Of a stretch of DNA of 64,000 bases, positions 30,163-62,224 are shown piece by piece; position 1 is the stretch's first letter; each line of letters opens with the position of its first letter. The DNA is taken from contig NZ_CP096670.1 of assembly GCF_023238625.1 (NCBI RefSeq), positions 1,539,501 through 1,603,500 on the forward strand, read 5' to 3'. The notes beneath the pieces were generated by a model that did no database searches, was not told the DNA's origin, and was given only the letters and a program-made list of their open reading frames with translations. Position numbers and translations under genes: made by a program. The stretch is from Agarivorans sp. TSD2052. Lineage in GTDB: Bacteria > Pseudomonadota > Gammaproteobacteria > Enterobacterales > Celerinatantimonadaceae.

Positions 30163-32289
30163 ATGTCGTTTGATGTAGATGAAGACATCTTACAAGACTT
30201 TCTCGTAGAGGCGGCAGAGATTCTTGAACAGCTCTCTGAGCAGTTGGTTGATTTAGAAAAACGTCCTGATGATAGTGACCTATTGAATGCCATTTTCAGA
30301 GGTTTCCACACCGTAAAAGGCGGTGCGGGATTTTTGTCATTAACTGAACTGGTTGACGTATGTCACGGTGCTGAAAACGTTTTTGACACTCTCCGTAATG
30401 GCGGGCGAGGCGTATCTTCAGAGTTAATGGATGTAATCCTTGAAGCTCTCGACGCGGTCAACGATATGTTTGGTCAAGTGCAAGCTCGCGAGCCCTTAAC
30501 CCCTGCTTCTCCTGAAATTATCGAGCGTTTACATCAACTCTCTAAACCAGAGTCCGCCGATGAGGTGGTTGCACCAGAACCAGAAGTGGTGGTAGAGCAG
30601 CCTGTTGAACCGGTTGCGCCTGCTGCTGATGTCGCCGCTGGTGGTGCCAGCATTGATGAAATCAGTGACGACGAATTTGAACGTTTGCTCGATGAACTAC
30701 ATGGTGGTGCTGCGCCCAATGCGCCCGCTACTCCGCCAGCCCCTGCTAGCCCTCCGAGTGCTGCCAGTGCAGGCGATATTTCAGATGACGAATTCGAGAA
30801 ACTACTTGATGAGCTGCATGGCTCTAATGCGCCCACCGCAAAAACTCCCGCTGCTAAAGCGCCACCCGCTGCTGCTAGCTCGGCTAGTGATGGTGAAATA
30901 GGCGATGACGAATTTGAAAAACTGTTAGACCAATTACATGGTGCAGGAAAAGCGCCTGAGCCAAAAGCACCGGCTCCCGTCGCCAAAGCTGCGACACCGG
31001 CACCAAAAGCGCCGCCAAAACCGGCTGCTAAGCCCGCCGCTGCGGCTAAGCCCGCCGCTGCGGCTAAGCCTGCTGCGGCGGCTAAAGAGCCAGCGAAGGC
31101 CGCTAAACAAGCACCGCAAGGCGAAACCACGGTTCGTGTTGATACTCGTACTTTAGACGAAATAATGAACATGGTCGGTGAGCTAGTATTAGTGAGAAAC
31201 CGCCTCGTCAGTTTAGGTTTAGTGAGTAACGACGAAGATATGTCTAAGGCCACCGCTAATTTAGACGTGGTGACCGCAGATTTGCAAGGCGCGGTGATGA
31301 AAACGCGTATGCAGCCGATCAAGAAAGTATTTGGTCGTTTTCCTCGGGTGGTACGTGATTTAGCGCGAAGCCTGAAGAAAGATATTAATTTGGAATTAGT
31401 GGGTGAAGAGACCGACCTCGATAAAAACTTGGTAGAAGCTCTCGCTGATCCTTTGGTCCACTTAGTCAGAAACTCAGTGGATCACGGTATCGAGATGCCT
31501 GATATTCGTGTCGCTGCAGGTAAACCTCGTACCGGTGTTATTCGTTTGTCTGCTTCTCAAGAAGGAGACCACATCTTATTGAAAATTGAAGATGATGGTG
31601 CCGGCATGAACGCTGACAAATTGAAAGGCATTGCCATTGAGCGCGGAGTGTTAGACGCTGATGCTGCGGCTCGCATGCCAGATAAAGACGCCTACAGTTT
31701 GATTTTTGCCCCTGGTTTTTCTACCAAAACTGAAATTTCAGACATTTCTGGGCGTGGTGTGGGTATGGACGTGGTGAAAACCAGCATCACCCAACTTAAT
31801 GGATCGGTTGATATCGACTCTAAGTTAGGCGAAGGCACCATTCTGCAAATCAAAGTTCCGTTAACGCTGGCTATTTTACCTACCTTGATGGTAGATGTTG
31901 GCAAGCAAACATTTGCCTTACCGCTAACCAGTGTTAATGAAATCTTCCACCTTGATTTAACTAAAACCAACGTTGTCGACGGCCAAGAAACCGTTATTGT
32001 TCGAGATAAAGCGATTCCGCTATTTTATTTGCAGGATTGGTTAATTAAGAATATGCAGCCCGGTCAACGAAGTTCGCAAGGCCATGTTGTGATCGTGCAA
32101 ATTGGTCCTCAGCAAGTGGGTTTTGTGGTTGATAACCTGATTGGCCAAGAAGAAGTCGTGATTAAAGCGCTTGACCAGTTACTGCAAGGTACTCCTGGTA
32201 TGGCAGGAGCGACTATCACCAGTGATGGCCGTATCGCTCTAATACTCGATATCCCTAGTCTGTTAAAACGCTACGCTCGTAAAATGTAA
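30163..32289 (+). CDS. cheA: Chemotaxis histidine kinase CheA with repeat-bearing linker
   Basis: CheA (708 residues) phosphorylates CheY and CheB on receptor signal. P1 (1-105) has the phospho-accepting His49 in [10 protein letters not shown]. No ordinary P2 domain is obvious; instead, residues 140-320 form an Ala/Pro-rich linker holding three near-identical 15-residue motifs ([15 protein letters not shown] type) at 167-181, 206-220 and 246-260. P3 begins at about 320, P4 has the N, G1 and G2 boxes ([27 protein letters not shown]) and P5 (about 566-705) is CheW-like. It is co-transcribed with cheYZ and cheB. Confidence 0.97.
31030..31083 (+). repeat. 18-bp tandem repeat (x3) inside cheA
   Basis: Three consecutive 18-base units, two identical (AAGCCCGCCGCTGCGGCT) and one synonymous variant, encode a KPAAAA repeat in the CheA linker. 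It is in frame and likely to change length by whole units. Confidence 0.85.
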
Positions 32290-55469: not shown

Positions 55470-56965
55470 AAAACCAACTGACTAGCGCTAGCACTATCGA
55501 GCAGATAGAAACACAGTTCTTAGCGCTAAAGCAATCTACAGATAAAGATAAATGGAATGACGCTATTTATCTAAAGCAAATCGCGCGTGATATGGCAGAA
55601 ACAAACATTGGTTTAGCTTATCGTATTATTCAACGAGCCAAGCTTTTAAAAGGCAACGGCCCTGAAATTATCGGGTTGCATCGTCGCTTCCGTGACGAGT
55701 TAAGTAAAAGTCATCCTGAGTTGCTAGAGCCCTTAACAACAGAAAATATCGTTTCAATCACGCCAGAAAACCCTATCCCCCCGCTTATTAGTGAATCACA
55801 AACTAGCGAGGATAAGTCAAAGTATCGGCTGAATAGTAAGTTGGCGCTATTGATTGGATTTATGAAACGGCCCATTGTGTTATTGGTGTTAATGCCTTGG
55901 ATGCTGTTTGCCGTTTATCAGCTTGTTATTGCTAGCCCTCGTTATGAAAGTCAAATGCAGCTCATTGTGCAACAACCCGACAGCATGGCGACGATGGACG
56001 CATCAATGGCAATATTAAGTGGCTTAGGTGTCAGTAGTGGTAACAGCGATCCGCTGTTAGTTAAAGCCTACATTTATTCTAATGATATGTTGCAATATTT
56101 AGAATCTGAACTCGCCATTAAAGCCCATTATAGTAGCTCAGATATTGACTGGTTTAGCAAACTGTCTGATTCTTCCTCTCAAGAAGACGCCTTCAAGTAT
56201 TTTCAGAATCAAGTACAAGTAGATATCGATGATGCGTCGCAAATCGTTACTGTGTACGTAAGAGCTTTTGACCCTCAATTTTCTCTGTCTTTGAGTCAAG
56301 CCATAGCGAATAGAGCTGAATGGTATATTAATTCTATCGGCCATCAATTGGCTAATGCCCAGCTTACCTTTATAGAGGGTGAGCACCAGCTAGTTGAAGA
56401 ACGCTTACAGCAAGCAAAAAAACGCTTATTAGGCTTTCAGCAGCAATACAACTTACTTGATCCTGAGGCCGAGGGAATGGCATTGTCGCAAATCGCCTAT
56501 GCTATTGAGGGGCAAATTGCGACTACTCATGCAGAGCTTCGAGCTCTTAAATCTACTATGAGCAGTCAAGCCCCGCAGGTTGTTATGGCCCAAGCTAAAT
56601 TAGATGCTTTATATGAACAACTGATTATCGAAAGAGAGCGCCTTACCGAACAACGTAGTGGAGAGCTAAGTAGTACTAACCCTGAAGGTTTGTCGGTTAG
56701 CCAATTGTTAGCCAGATTTACCGACTATAAAGTAGATTTAGAGCTCGCTTTAACGGCATATACCTCGTCGCAGATATCTTTAGAAAAGTCTCGTATCGAA
56801 GCTTATCGCCAACTTAAATACCTTATTAGAGTAGAAACACCGATTAAGCCAGAAGAGAATAAATACCCAAATGTTAATTATAATTTAGCGCTCATGGCGG
56901 TTGTATTGTTGCTGCTGTTTGGTGTGGGTAAGATTATTCATGCAACAATTAAAGAACTCAACTAG
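55466..56965 (+). CDS. kpsE: Capsule export inner-membrane protein (KpsE/CtrB-type PCP) with N-terminal extension
   Basis: A 499-residue polysaccharide co-polymerase-type protein. Two membrane helices (about 133-155 and 470-492) enclose a long periplasmic coiled-coil region (about 290-440, ending near KYLIRVETPIKPEENKYPN, the KpsE-type C-terminal mark). The first 130 residues are an extra cytoplasmic helical part not found in the usual 360-390 residue KpsE/CtrB/BexC. It bridges KpsMT to the OPX protein. This is the last gene of the tight 50771-56965 run. Confidence 0.88.
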   Translation: MKNQLTSASTIEQIETQFLALKQSTDKDKWNDAIYLKQIARDMAETNIGLAYRIIQRAKLLKGNGPEIIGLHRRFRDELSKSHPELLEPLTTENIVSITPENPIPPLISESQTSEDKSKYRLNSKLALLIGFMKRPIVLLVLMPWMLFAVYQLVIASPRYESQMQLIVQQPDSMATMDASMAILSGLGVSSGNSDPLLVKAYIYSNDMLQYLESELAIKAHYSSSDIDWFSKLSDSSSQEDAFKYFQNQVQVDIDDASQIVTVYVRAFDPQFSLSLSQAIANRAEWYINSIGHQLANAQLTFIEGEHQLVEERLQQAKKRLLGFQQQYNLLDPEAEGMALSQIAYAIEGQIATTHAELRALKSTMSSQAPQVVMAQAKLDALYEQLIIERERLTEQRSGELSSTNPEGLSVSQLLARFTDYKVDLELALTAYTSSQISLEKSRIEAYRQLKYLIRVETPIKPEENKYPNVNYNLALMAVVLLLLFGVGKIIHATIKELN

Positions 56966-57089
56966 CATCACCCGACACTAGTGCTTAGTGTTTAAGCTGG
57001 CGGTTTTTTAGTACTTTATATGAAAATTAACGATGGGTACTATGGATATTCTTATTCGTGGTATCTAGCTAAAAATTAAGGCGTACGAA

Positions 57090-57974
57090 GTGAAAAGAAA
57101 AGGAATTATATTAGCGGGCGGCTCCGGTAGCCGACTTTATCCGTTAACTAAAGTAATTAGTAAACAGCTTATGCCTGTCTATGACAAGCCAATGATCTAT
57201 TACCCGATTTCTACTCTGATGTTAGCGGGCATAACGGACATCTTAATCATTGCTACGCCTGAAGAGTTACCGCGTTTTAAAGAGTTACTCGGTAGTGGCG
57301 AGCAATGGGGGCTAACCTTTTCTTATGTCGCTCAGCCTTCACCCGATGGCTTAGCACAAGCCTTTATTTTAGGTGAAGAGTTTTTAGCTGGCTCTCCAGC
57401 TTGCCTAGTATTAGGCGATAATATTTTTTACGGCAATGATTTGAGTGTGTCGCTTAAAAAAGCGAATCAACAAACCTCTGGTGCCAGCGTATTCGGTTAC
57501 CATGTACACGACCCCGAACGTTACGGCGTGGTTGACTTTGATGACAACGGCAAAGCAGTATCTATAGAAGAAAAGCCAGCAGAACCTAAATCAAATTATG
57601 CGGTAACAGGCTTGTATTTTTATGATCAACATGTGGTAGAAATGGCGAAAACAATTAAACCATCACCACGGGGCGAGCTAGAAATTACCGATCTCAATAA
57701 CCTTTACTTACAAAAAGGTGAATTAAGCGTAGAACTAATGGGGCGTGGAAGCGCTTGGTTAGACACGGGCACCCACGATTCTCTGCTCGAAGCTGCACAC
57801 TTCATATCGGTATTAGAAAAACGTCAAGGTTTAAAGGTATGTTGCCCTGAAGAGATTGCCTACCGACAAGGGTTAATTAGTGCCGAACAATTACAAGCCT
57901 TAGCCAAACCCATGCTTAAAAATGGTTACGGGCAGTACTTAATGGCCTTAACTAAAAACAAAGTGTTTAGTTAA
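57090..57974 (+). CDS. rfbA: Glucose-1-phosphate thymidylyltransferase RfbA/RmlA
   Basis: RfbA makes dTDP-glucose, first step of dTDP-L-rhamnose synthesis. The GTG start at 57090 has AAGGCG upstream. The 294-residue protein shows [17 protein letters not shown] and [16 protein letters not shown] (nucleotide/substrate motifs), and [19 protein letters not shown]. It lies 124 bases after kpsE; no strong promoter was placed in that gap. Confidence 0.97.
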
Positions 57975-58015
57975 TTTACCGCTTGAGTGTTGATAAGCCC
58001 AAGGGCAATATTTGC

Positions 58016-58077
58016 GAAGCCCGAAGCCCGAAGCCCGAAGCCCGAAGCCCGAAGCCCGAAGCTCGAAGCCCGAAGCT
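58016..58077 (+). repeat. GAAGCCC heptanucleotide tandem repeat
   Basis: Eight full 7-base units (GAAGCCC, the seventh GAAGCTC) plus a partial ninth (GAAGCT) lie between rfbA and rfbC, ending 14 bases before the rfbC start. A 7-base unit is not a multiple of three, but the repeat is outside any gene. Confidence 0.95.
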
Positions 58078-58091
58078 AAAGTGAGACAGCA

Positions 58092-58637
58092 ATGAAATTT
58101 GTAGAAACAGCAATACCTGATGTAAAAATTATCGAACCTACCGTATTTGGTGACGACCGTGGTTTTTTTATGGAAACCTTTCGCCAAAGCTTATTTGAAC
58201 AACACTGTACTAAGCAGCCGTTTGTGCAAGATAACCACTCTAAGTCTAAGCAAGGTATTTTGCGTGGTTTACATTACCAAACACAGCATACCCAGGGCAA
58301 ATTGGTAAGAGTAGTGAGCGGTGAGGTGTTTGATGTAGCGGTAGACATTCGCGCTAATTCACCCACTTATGGGCAGTGGGTTGGGGTGTTATTATCAGCC
58401 GAAAACAAACGTCAATTATGGGTGCCAGCAGGCTTTGCCCACGGTTTTTATGTCACCAGTGAAGAAGCCGAGTTTGTGTATAAGTGCACCGACTACTATG
58501 CGCCAGAATTTGATGTATCCATTAAGTGGAACGATCCCGCTATAGGTATCAAGTGGCCGCTGGTGAATGGGCTGGCGCCATTAATATCAGAGAAAGATGA
58601 AAACGGCTTGGCTTTTGACCTAGCGCCAAAGTTGTAA
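58092..58637 (+). CDS. rfbC: dTDP-4-dehydrorhamnose 3,5-epimerase RfbC/RmlC
   Basis: RfbC (181 residues) epimerises dTDP-4-keto-6-deoxyglucose at C3 and C5. It is a cupin: FGDDRGFFMETFRQ, QDNHSKSKQGILRGLHYQ (catalytic His) and WVPAGFAHGFYVTSEEAEFVYKCTDYY are family motifs. The ribosome site is weak (GTGAGA). It lies just after the 7-bp repeat. Confidence 0.97.
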   Translation: MKFVETAIPDVKIIEPTVFGDDRGFFMETFRQSLFEQHCTKQPFVQDNHSKSKQGILRGLHYQTQHTQGKLVRVVSGEVFDVAVDIRANSPTYGQWVGVLLSAENKRQLWVPAGFAHGFYVTSEEAEFVYKCTDYYAPEFDVSIKWNDPAIGIKWPLVNGLAPLISEKDENGLAFDLAPKL

Positions 58638-58706
58638 AAACAATAATAGTTACCATGGCGTACTTGCGATAAAAGCATCGTCGCCATTTAAACCTCAAGG
58701 ATACTC

Positions 58707-59606
58707 ATGAAAGTACTCGTAACCGGCAAGGGCGGCCAACTGGCTTGGGAACTCGAACAAACAAAGCCTGCTAATGTCGAGTTAATAAGCTTAGGCTTAG
58801 AAGAGCTAGACATTACTCAGCAAGTGGCTGTGCAAGCGGCTATCGGTTTGCATAAACCCGACATTGTGATAAATGCAGCGGCCTATACGGCGGTAGACAA
58901 AGCAGAAGCGGACCAAGCTACCGCTTTTGCGGTTAATGAGTTAGGTGCCAAATATATAGCCCAAGCCTGCAAGCAGCAGGGGGCGTACTTGATGCATATA
59001 TCTACCGACTTTGTATTCTCGGGCGATCAAACCACGCCTTATCAGGTGGATGATCAAACTAAGCCGATAAACGTTTATGGCGCATCTAAGTTAGCGGGCG
59101 ATATCGCGGTAAACGAGGCCTTAGCCGAGCAAGCGCTAATAGTACGTACCGCCTGGGTGTATTCGGTAAACGGCAATAACTTTGTAAAAACCATGTTGCG
59201 TTTAATGGCGGATAAACCAGAGCTAGGTATTATTTATGACCAAGTGGGCACCCCTACTTGGGCCAAAGGCTTAGCTTTATGGTTATGGGCAATGGTAGCT
59301 AAGCAAGCTAGCAATAGCGTAGCAGCAGACCCTCAATGGCAAGATCGCACGCCTATCTATCATTGGACAGATGCAGGTGTAGCCTCATGGTATGATTTTG
59401 CAGTCGCTATTCAAGAGTTAGCCATAGAAAAAGGCCTGCTAGGTAAAGCGATACCCATTAAAGCTATTGCGGCAGCGGCTTACCCATTACCCGCTGCTCG
59501 CCCTGCGTTCAGTGTTATTGATAAACAAACTGCCGAGCAGGCATCCGGGCAAAACACGGTGCACTGGCGTCAGCAATTAAGCAGCATGATGGACCAGTTA
59601 GTTTAG
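58707..59606 (+). CDS. rfbD: dTDP-4-dehydrorhamnose reductase RfbD/RmlD
   Basis: RfbD (299 residues) reduces dTDP-4-keto-L-rhamnose to dTDP-L-rhamnose. The Rossmann start VTGKGGQLAWEL, STDFVFSG and YGASKLAGD (catalytic Tyr and Lys) are present. CAAGGATA lies upstream of the ATG. It follows rfbC by 69 bases. Confidence 0.96.
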   Translation: MKVLVTGKGGQLAWELEQTKPANVELISLGLEELDITQQVAVQAAIGLHKPDIVINAAAYTAVDKAEADQATAFAVNELGAKYIAQACKQQGAYLMHISTDFVFSGDQTTPYQVDDQTKPINVYGASKLAGDIAVNEALAEQALIVRTAWVYSVNGNNFVKTMLRLMADKPELGIIYDQVGTPTWAKGLALWLWAMVAKQASNSVAADPQWQDRTPIYHWTDAGVASWYDFAVAIQELAIEKGLLGKAIPIKAIAAAAYPLPAARPAFSVIDKQTAEQASGQNTVHWRQQLSSMMDQLV

Positions 59607-59615
59607 CTGAAAGTA

Positions 59616-59636
59616 CTAAGCACTAAGCCCTAAGTG
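59616..59636 (+). repeat. Short CTAAGNN 7-bp repeat (x3)
   Basis: CTAAGCA, CTAAGCC, CTAAGTG in tandem, just after the rfbD stop. It has the same period as the GAAGCCC repeat in the rfbA-rfbC gap, but different sequence and only three copies. Confidence 0.6.
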
Positions 59637-59706
59637 ATAGGCTTTTTACGTAAAGTTTTACACTTATAGCGATTAACTTTTGGTTTTATATATTTTAGAG
59701 GAAACA

Positions 59707-60780
59707 ATGAGAAATTTATTAGTGACCGGTGGAGCCGGCTTTATCGGGGTTAATTTTGTCCATTATTGGTTAAGTAATAACCCTCAAGATAAAGTGGTAG
59801 TGCTTGATGCGCTAACGTATGCAGGTAATAAAGCTAGTCTCGAACCAGTAGCGGCCAACCCTAACTTTAGCTTTGTAAAAGGGGATATCTGCGATACCGA
59901 GTTAGTAGAAAAACTACTAAACCAACACCATATAGATACTTTAGTGCACTTTGCGGCTGAATCTCATGTTGACCGCTCTATTACTGGGCCAGATGCCTTT
60001 ATTGAAACGAATATTATGGGTACCTATAGCTTATTAAAAGCCGCCAAAAAAGTATGGATAGATCAGCCCGCAATAGATGGTAAACCAGCTGTAGCTCACC
60101 GCTTTCACCATGTTAGTACAGACGAAGTATACGGAACATTAAGCCCTACTGATCCTGCATTTACCGAAGATACCGCTTATGCGCCTAACTCGCCGTATTC
60201 GGCCTCTAAAGCCGCCAGTGATCATTTGGTTCGCGCTTATCATCACACCTACGGATTACAGGTTACCACCTCTAATTGTTCAAATAACTACGGGCCTTAT
60301 CATTTCCCTGAAAAGTTAATCCCGCTAATTATCACCAACATTTTGCAAGACAAACCTCTGCCAGTGTATGGCGACGGTCAACAAATTCGTGACTGGTTAT
60401 ACGTAGAAGATCATGCGCGCGGTATTGAACTTGTTCTAAACAAAGGCCGTGTTGGCGAAAACTACAACATCGGCGGCAATAACGAATGGGCCAATATCGA
60501 TATTGTTAAATTAGTGTGTAAGCAGATGAATAACAAGTTTATTCAGCAACCTCAGCTGGCAGAACAATTCCCTTTAGCGAAACAGGTTTTACATGGTAAA
60601 GCAGAACAACTGATTACCTATGTTGAAGATCGCGCAGGACATGACCGCCGCTACGCCATTGATGCTACCAAAACCAATCATGAATTAGGTTACGAGCCTA
60701 AAGAATCTTTTGACAGTGGCTTTGCAAAAACCTTAGATTGGTATTTAAGCAACGAATCTTGGTGGAAGCCATTACTTTAA
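59707..60780 (+). CDS. rfbB: dTDP-glucose 4,6-dehydratase RfbB/RmlB
   Basis: RfbB converts dTDP-glucose to dTDP-4-keto-6-deoxyglucose, second step of the rhamnose pathway. I start it at ATG 59707 (357 residues), preceded by AGAGGAAAC; the frame also reads nine codons further up to 59680. Motifs: [31 protein letters not shown] and [10 protein letters not shown] (Tyr-x3-Lys). Confidence 0.97.
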
Positions 60781-60814
60781 TTCTATTTTTTTTCTATTTT
60801 TGTAGGTAATCATT

Positions 60815-62224
60815 ATGAATATTACTCCGGTAATCATGGCGGGTGGTACGGGCAGCCGTTTATGGCCAATGTCTCGCGCATTGCATCCTAAGCAATTTTT
60901 AAAATTAACGAGCGACAATAGCATGTTGCAAGAAACGGTAAAGCGCACCGAAGCCTTTACTCAGCAAAGAAACATTGTGATTTGTAATGATGAACATCGG
61001 TTTTTGGCCGCAGAGCAGTTAAGAGAAGTGGGCCAACTTGGCCAAATTATATTAGAGCCGGTAGGGCGTAATACTGCTCCGGCAATCGCTTTAGCCGCTT
61101 TTCAACTACTTAAACACGATCCCGAATCGATGATGCTGGTGTTAGCCGCTGACCATGTGATTAAAAACCAAAGTGCTTTTGAAGAGAGTGTTGCTAAAGC
61201 CTACGTTGAAGCGCAAAACGGTAAAATGGTAACCTTTGGCATTGTCCCCAGACACCCAGAAACCGGTTATGGTTATATTAAACGAGGTCAAGAGACCACA
61301 CATGGTTTTAATGTTGATCAGTTTGTAGAAAAACCGGATGCAAAAACAGCGCAAAGCTATCTAGATAATGGTAACTACTATTGGAACAGCGGGATGTTTT
61401 TGTTTAAAGCGTCGCGCTATTTGGAAGAATTGAACGAGCATAGACCTGACATATATAAAGCCTGTGAAGCTGCCATGGATATTGCCGTTTCAGACATGGA
61501 CTTTGTCCGGGTCGACAATGACATCTTTTCAGCCTGCCCTTCAGAATCGATTGACTATGCTGTAATGGAAAAAACCACCAGTGCAGTGGTTATTCCTTTA
61601 GATGCTGACTGGAGCGATGTGGGTGAATGGTCTGCCTTATGGGACATATCGGACAAGGACTCAAATAGCAATGTTATGCGCGGTGATGTATTAACGCATA
61701 ATTCTACAAACAGCTATTTTAATGCAGAACAAAAAATGATTGCTGCAGTAGGTGTAGACAACATCGTGGTTATTGAAACTAAAGATGCAGTGTTAGTGGC
61801 GAATAAAGACCAAGTACAAGATGTTAAAGCCATTGTAGAGCAATTAAAGGCCAGTAATAGAACCGAACATCATATTCACCGAGAGGTTTATCGCCCCTGG
61901 GGCAAGTATGACTCAATAGATTTTGGCAAACGCGACCAAGTGAAGCGTATCTCTGTAAAACCGGGTGAAAAACTCTCCATTCAAAAACACCATCATCGCG
62001 CCGAGCATTGGATCGTTGTATCCGGTACCGCTAGCGTAACCAATGGTGATAAAACTATCATTGTTACTGAAGACCAATCTACCTATATTCCTTTGGGTAC
62101 TATCCATGCCTTGGAGAATCCCGGTAAAATAATGCTAGAAATGATTGAAGTACAAACCGGTAGCTATTTGGGTGAAGATGATATCGTTCGATTTGAAGAC
62201 CGTTATGGCCGAATCAAAGGTTAA
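60815..62224 (+). CDS. manC: Mannose-1-phosphate guanylyltransferase / mannose-6-phosphate isomerase
   Basis: ManC (CpsB type, 469 residues) makes GDP-mannose. The nucleotidyltransferase domain has [22 protein letters not shown] and FVEKPD; the C-terminal cupin domain (about 350-465) with [20 protein letters not shown] and [12 protein letters not shown] carries the isomerase activity in bifunctional members. It is 34 bases after rfbB and three bases before manB. Confidence 0.95.

Follow-up and report, generated by a model that had tools for sequence, protein, structure and literature searches.

Heptanucleotides are reported to be the commonest class of long simple repeat in the majority of prokaryote genomes (PMC4679880, citing Mrazek et al. 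2007, in the portion drawn on here), and slippage tied to the polymerase footprint has been proposed to account for this dominance of 7-base units (same portion of PMC4679880). Repeats of this kind are tandem, intergenic and longer than chance, and slippage is their proposed source (sections of PMC4679880 and PMC4692102). Several heptanucleotide arrays of this type have been described. The GGGNATC and GGGGA(C/T)T arrays of Xanthomonas and Nostoc number more than 100 in the intergenic regions of one genome; each unit consists of GGG and a 4-base spacer on one strand, and the arrays, which vary in length between relatives, lie near gene starts with the G-rich strand as the non-coding strand (PMC4692102, in part). 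In Haemophilus influenzae, the ATCTTTC array of hmw1A is situated between two promoter regions, and the number of units was shown to alter expression (PMC8262952, in part). Marine Beggiatoaceae have TAACTGA arrays, with an in-frame stop in the unit, with 169 sets in one genome (PMC4679880, in part).

The array described here is a member of this known kind of repeat, the heptanucleotide arrays. It is found in a 64,000-nt stretch of DNA, the whole of which was analysed and is referred to as the window, from the 4.6-Mb, single-contig genome of Agarivorans sp. TSD2052. It is probably a slippage-born, lineage-specific and nearly neutral 7-base long simple-sequence repeat inside a dTDP-rhamnose gene cluster.

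The array and its gene cluster

The array occupies positions 58016–58077 of the forward strand and reads (GAAGCCC)6, GAAGCTC, GAAGCCC, GAAGCT, i.e., eight full 7-base units and six of the seven bases of a ninth. Of the 117 bases that separate the rfbA stop codon at 57974 from the rfbC ATG at 58092, the array takes up 62, and it ends 14 bases before that ATG. The unit count, the distance to rfbC and the share of about half of the 117-bp gap that were given in an earlier note on this DNA are borne out by the sequence, but the description of the array as pure is not, as unit 7 is GAAGCTC. Tandem Repeats Finder places the repeat at 58015–58076, with period 7, 8.9 copies, 96% matches and a score of 117, which is the highest in the window; the next scores are 97, 75 and 67. 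The doubled unit GAAGCCCGAAGCCC occurs five times in the window, always within the array, and in none of 100 shuffles. Thus the array displays a tandem 7-base unit that is longer than chance and an intergenic location, as do other heptanucleotide long simple-sequence repeats. An intergenic position is usual for repeat units whose length is not a multiple of three. The array unit has no stop codon in any frame. The window's second-highest score belongs to an 18-base tandem repeat, GCTAAGCCCGCCGCTGCG, at 31027–31085, with 3.3 copies and a length that is a multiple of three.

The flanking genes are rfbA (57090–57974, forward strand), of the glucose-1-phosphate thymidylyltransferase family (Pfam NTP_transferase), and rfbC (58092–58637, forward strand), of the dTDP-4-dehydrorhamnose 3,5-epimerase family (Pfam dTDP_sugar_isom). 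The names of the next genes also fit, rfbD having a match to RmlD_sub_bind and rfbB to GDP_Man_Dehyd. Pfam matches in the neighborhood show an ABC-2 transporter membrane protein, an ABC ATPase, rfbA, rfbC, rfbD, rfbB, a manC-like gene and a phosphomannomutase-like gene. The two transporter genes are presumably kpsM/kpsT-like, and the gene immediately 5′ of rfbA, which has no Pfam match, is taken to be kpsE. In the rfbC-rfbD gap (58638–58706) an inverted repeat, ATGGCG...CGCCAT, was spotted by eye. Repeat scans also found a weak period-7 tract, AAGTACTAAGCACTAAGCCCTAAG, with the unit TAAGCAC/TAAGCCC, at 59611–59634 (forward strand) in the rfbD-rfbB gap of the same operon. The presence of two period-7 tracts within one operon is suggestive, the second of them being short.

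To assess rarity, the genome was searched with the strict pattern and with a relaxed pattern (AAGCNC in three copies), and the array is the only genomic site for both; that it is one of many such arrays in the genome was rejected on the single site of the relaxed pattern. A tolerant scan for periods of 4–14 in 461.5 kb (the window and 20 sampled stretches) detected only the array, at period 7, and its period-14 echo. A shorter and laxer scan added the weak tract at 59611–59634, and in the sampled stretches it revealed no further period-7 tract apart from a run of N. When 100-kb samples of four further genomes from the order were put through the tolerant scan, it gave 1, 0, 2 and 1 period-7 tracts.

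Just upstream of the array is an apparent old ribosome site, GGGCAATATT (58003–58012, forward strand), a sequence in common with the 14-bp rfbA-rfbC gap of locus L260, discussed below; the AAGGG of this site is at 58001–58005. The present rfbC upstream region, AAAGTGAGACAGCA (58078–58091, forward strand), has a weak ribosome-site-like stretch, as judged by sequence and duplex energy. With what we take to be the 16S end sequence, the last 20 bases before the rfbC ATG have a predicted 16S RNA pairing of -7.0, and the corresponding values for rfbA, rfbD and rfbB are -6.2, -6.8 and -7.9. The rfbC upstream region is thus predicted to pair about as well as those of the three other genes, and translation need not have suffered.

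A scan for sigma-70-like promoters gave none in the rfbA-rfbC gap and eight in a 5.5-kb region, compared to a shuffle mean of 11.7. A terminator scan of the gap gave none, and a promoter or a terminator in the gap was rejected on these scans. Among the sigma-70-like sites scanned there was no arrangement of the hmw1A type, whereby an array lies between or overlaps promoter elements. It had been proposed that the array could alter how far the rfbC ribosome site lies from an upstream signal. This is partly supported: there is no promoter-like site in the gap, but with the apparent old ribosome site immediately 5′ of the repeat, that one spacing may have been altered. A change in mRNA folding had also been proposed; the predicted fold of the gap with 40 additional bases does not surpass those of shuffles (z 0.41; 133 of 200 shuffles did at least as well). 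A structured RNA was rejected on the same z value and because two Rfam matches in 56900–60900 are far below gathering scores. An antisense hairpin was rejected as well, the minus strand of the array, at -24 kcal/mol, being no better than shuffles (z -0.27). Reading of open frames gives a hypothetical 27-aa leader ORF (58012–58095, forward strand), which has a TTG start, passes through the array and has a TGA that overlaps the rfbC ATG. The forward frames of the array are open, yet this leader has no Pfam match, and a protein-coding repeat was rejected.

The minus strand of the array, (GGGCTTC)n, contains seven GGG runs, six of which are consecutive, and a motif scan found a canonical G-quadruplex motif, GGGCTTCGGGCTTCGGGCTTCGGG, at 58034–58057 on that strand. 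It is the only such motif in the window, where 0.16 would be expected from resampled sequence. The array thus shows the four or more GGG runs with short spacers on one strand that are characteristic of quadruplex heptamer arrays. Genomic abundance, also characteristic of these, is not seen: the relaxed pattern has one site, and 397.5 kb sampled elsewhere in this genome contained no quadruplex motif.

The rfbA-rfbC gap in relatives and in other loci

The strict array pattern is found in none of the six other genomes of the genus. The rfbA genes of these genomes have 57–66% identity to the rfbA analysed here, and in the five genus loci compared rfbB precedes rfbA. The nearest rfbA genes, with 75–77% identity, are from three loci of another family that have in common the order kpsM-kpsT-kpsE-rfbA-rfbC-rfbD-rfbB. 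Their rfbA-rfbC gaps are 14, 5 and 14 bp in length, without an array; inheritance of the array from the nearest known loci was rejected, as none of the three carries it. E. coli genomes gave no match to positions 57960–58100. The rfbC array has a counterpart in none of the relatives examined.

In one of the three nearest loci, L260, the sequence GGGGCAATATTCAC immediately precedes the rfbC ATG, and its 10-mer, described above as an apparent old ribosome site, recurs just 5′ of the array. When this stretch of the gap was shuffled 2000 times, a match of 10 bases never arose. In the other two near relatives 5 and 4 bases are shared, a level that shuffles also reach (759/2000 and 1431/2000). The predicted 16S pairing of rfbC in the three near relatives is -7.2, -1.1 and -10.3. 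On the simplest reading of the one 10-base match, growth of the array would have separated an old ribosome site from the rfbC start codon.

Gap lengths were surveyed in a larger set, in which 50 rows had rfbA and 39 of these had rfbC within 300 bp; as G061 appears twice, there are 38 distinct loci, 37 without that of the window. In the other loci where rfbC adjoins rfbA the gap is 90 bp or less in 36 of 37 (range -29 to 193 bp); it should be noted that 18 of the surveyed stretches were chosen by eye among the matches listed of a search positive in 166 of 394 genomes, several of them for a gap that seemed long, and these 18 are biased towards long gaps. The longest gap, 193 bp, is in L296 (G319:C2:8400-10200) and consists of degenerate 7-base units such as ACTCGTT, GCTTGCC and ACTTGTC. 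Genome G319 carries the genus label of G290; over a 500-bp flank, the latter matches Shewanella sp. AS1. Across the full L296 gap, 49% of positions are identical to the position 7 bases downstream. In an author-chosen core of 110 bases, 60% match at lag 7 and 70% at lag 14, and the lag-7 maximum in 2000 shuffles of the core is 42%. Thus the L296 gap is a degenerate period-7 tract, and the rfbA-rfbC junction has a 7-base tract in two unrelated loci. One of 37 other loci with a 7-base tract at the junction may be due to chance.

Other features of the gaps were also noted. By eye, the 67-bp and 90-bp rfbA-rfbC gaps of L295 (G213:C1:3725400-3727000) and L293 (G127:C9:4900-6600) look like hairpins. 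The rfbC-rfbD gaps of L258 and L260, 149 and 109 bp in length, have stretches like TTCGTCC...CTTCTCGAAGGATGAAC, which we take to resemble another dispersed repeat.

GAAGCYC arrays in other bacteria

A 26-base GAAGCYC pattern was detected in at least 116 stretches of a collection with one genome per species. Judging by record titles, 55 of 116 among the matches listed are from Halomonas and genera that we take to be allied to it. Other sources among the matches listed are Shewanella, Psychromonas, Pseudoalteromonas, Vibrio, Burkholderia, Streptomyces and several metagenome-assembled phyla. Within the order, three GAAGCYC units are present in 11 of 394 genomes, which belong to 8 of the 115 genera. 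As controls, a rearranged unit of the same composition was found in 0 of 394 genomes and the rearranged unit backwards in 3 of 394. In the same family, two genomes from another genus have GAAGCCC arrays, and one of these adds AAAGCCC and the other TAAGCAC. The TAAGCAC array, that of G011, is clear, and its unit is also that of the weak tract at 59611.

Exact arrays in the 116 loci were counted by period. Among the matches listed there are 194 of period 7 and at most 12 of every other period from 4 to 14, a lead that is partly built in because the set was selected for GAAGCYC. At more than 500 bp from the GAAGCYC arrays period 7 is still ahead, with 27 versus at most 10 (among the matches listed). 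Arrays of at least five units consist of a single unit type in 63 of 82 cases among the matches listed (34 GAAGCTC and 29 GAAGCCC), and 19 are mixed. Gene context was determined for 109 arrays of at least four units, with 20 edge cases and 36 arrays "inside ORF" set aside; the latter number is inflated because the GAAGCYC unit has no stop in any frame. Of the 53 arrays situated between two mechanical ORFs (among the matches listed), the left gene, on the GAAGCYC strand, points at the array in 41, and four are between divergent genes. Many arrays of Halomonas and its allies (L045, L057, L058, L095, L141 and others) start a few bases after a stop codon. These arrays are then followed by a terminator-like hairpin, and sometimes by an inverted (GCTTCCA) tract beyond it.

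The comparison started from 29 pairs among 135 arrays, and arrays were considered to be at comparable sites when the flanking sequences of different genomes could be aligned as far as the array itself, on one side or both. Dropped were record pairs from the same genome (L062/L257 twice, L063/L254), the pair L092/L097, where an array reaches the contig end, pairs compared on one side only in which similarity ends at least 10 bases short of the array (L052/L095, L088/L110, L068/L085, L111/L147), and pairs alike only in short repeat-like or terminator-like stretches, such as L053/L100, L057/L094 and L062/L144. Among the matches listed, the number of units differs between genomes at all nine comparable sites. 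The numbers are 17/8/4, 6/22/12, 10/6, 7/6, 15/6, 5/3, 7/4, 7/4 and 5/4, of which single counts may be off since some assemblies are drafts; at the 5/4 site, the 4 units are followed by seven more after one variant. At two of the nine sites the unit type differs as well, GAAGCCC versus GAAGCTC (L096 versus L051 and L117; L068 versus L111). Such differences in number and type are what slippage and repeated expansion would give. By analogy with these sites, the rfbC array likely changes copy number too.

A literature search on the doubled unit in either strand, with most subscription journals outside its scope, matched work on apple genetics and gave no report of the GAAGCCC unit in bacteria. 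The titles of the best literature matches on rmlC, phase variation and tandem repeats name no rfbA-rfbC repeat.

Origin, possible roles and comparison with known arrays

In the preferred reading, replication slippage would have created and expanded the array in this lineage. Growth would have taken place between the old ribosome site and the rfbC start, to judge by the 10-base match, and rfbC would now be translated from a newer ribosome site. The array itself is probably nearly neutral, with at most a modest polar effect on downstream genes. The single genomic site, the absence from six genus genomes and the short, array-free gaps of the three nearest loci argue for this reading, as do the preponderance of single-type arrays (63 of 82) and the differences in unit number at nine of nine sites, both among the matches listed. 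Also in line with it are the predicted 16S pairing of the present rfbC upstream region, which resembles that of rfbA, rfbD and rfbB, the reported abundance of heptanucleotide repeats with slippage as their proposed origin, and the lack of an unusual fold, of an Rfam family at gathering score and of a promoter in the gap. Against this reading is the non-random nature of the unit, as GAAGCYC recurs in distant bacteria and the controls gave 0/394 and 3/394. In addition, one strand of the array has the only quadruplex motif in 461.5 kb and its placement could matter; there is also a second 7-base tract in the operon and a 7-base tract in the same gap of another species.

Several alternatives were considered. 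A quadruplex formed by template-strand (GGGCTTC)n might slow RNA polymerase between rfbA and rfbC, and slippage would vary the GGG runs available. Besides the rarity of the motif in the window and in the 397.5 kb of the same genome, its position on the non-coding strand, 14 bases 5′ of a start, is the upstream location most often reported for the GGGNATC-type arrays of Xanthomonas and Nostoc, and those arrays fold in vitro (PMC4692102, in part). However, the motif is present in only 39 of 82 arrays of at least five units elsewhere (among the matches listed), and at two of the nine comparable sites the GAAGCCC of one genome is matched by the GGG-free GAAGCTC in a second, which argues against a quadruplex function; the authors of PMC4692102, in the part cited, found no regulatory role for their own arrays. 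Such a roadblock would appear unlikely. Somewhat more doubtful is a process common to Gammaproteobacteria by which 7-base arrays built on a favored core, RRGY and three variable bases, arise or spread, the rfbC array being one of its products. The distribution of GAAGCYC in the order relative to the two controls favors it, as do the two same-family genomes with AAAGCCC or TAAGCAC in addition to GAAGCCC arrays, and the core is present in 22 of 29 units near GAAGCYC arrays, compared to 12.7 when shuffled (1/2000 as many). At more than 500 bp from the arrays, however, the excess is weak (10/16 versus 6.2, 63/2000), this genome has one clear array, and only two control units were compared.

Two further proposals concern rfbC expression. 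If the 27-aa leader were translated from the TTG at 58012 via the old AAGGG, it would end in ATGA at the rfbC start, and a gain or loss of units would shift the frame so that the leader stops 12 or 7 bases before the ATG and reinitiation changes. The three frames do end at 58095, 58079 and 58084, and AAGGG is 6 bases before the TTG, but a TTG start, a predicted ribosome-site pairing of -5.6, the lack of a Pfam match and the absence of the leader from all of the relatives count against it, and a frame yielding ATGA would arise by chance one time in three. On the sequence as read, this frame-dependent coupling is very unlikely. The idea in the earlier note that copy number might tune rfbC, by altering how far it lies from a promoter or another upstream signal or by altering mRNA folding, is possible, with a precedent in the hmw1A array, in which more units lead to lower expression (PMC8262952, in part). 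With no promoter-like site in the gap and folding no better than shuffles, it is given hardly any weight, and the other option in that note, neutrality, accounts for the evidence no less well. Equally little weight is given to a combined scheme, in which a shared process reached the rfbA-rfbC junction more than once and here displaced the rfbC ribosome site, and unit number sets the RfbC supply via quadruplex or leader.

A neutral array could serve as a strain marker and would illustrate the lengthening of gaps within operons by short repeats. If unit number tunes rfbC, the dTDP-rhamnose supply for surface polysaccharide might be adjustable by slippage. The occurrence of one heptamer in far-apart bacteria, with unit number and at times unit type varying at a given site, bears on the dominance of 7-base units among long simple repeats.

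The comparison with described arrays is as follows. The rfbC array is like the heptanucleotide long simple-sequence repeats in being tandem, intergenic and longer than chance, with slippage as a plausible source, but the unit GAAGCCC is not named in the parts of PMC4679880 and PMC4692102 cited, and here there is one array in the genome. It resembles the hmw1A array as a 7-base array 5′ of a gene for a surface trait, and differs in that the latter lies between promoter regions and has a demonstrated effect of unit number (PMC8262952, in part). With the Xanthomonas and Nostoc arrays it shares the GGG and 4-base spacer and the non-coding G-rich strand near a start, and arrays of its unit elsewhere likewise vary in length. 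It differs from these in number, one as opposed to more than 100 in a genome, in its GGGCTTC unit, for which a quadruplex is only predicted, and in that related arrays lose GGG (PMC4692102, in part). Although the Beggiatoaceae TAACTGA arrays form many sets in one genome and have a stop in the unit, while the rfbC array is single and has none, they are similar to it in their location, mostly just 5′ of start codons, in the place of the ribosome site, and in their sporadic occurrence in distant taxa (PMC4679880, in part).
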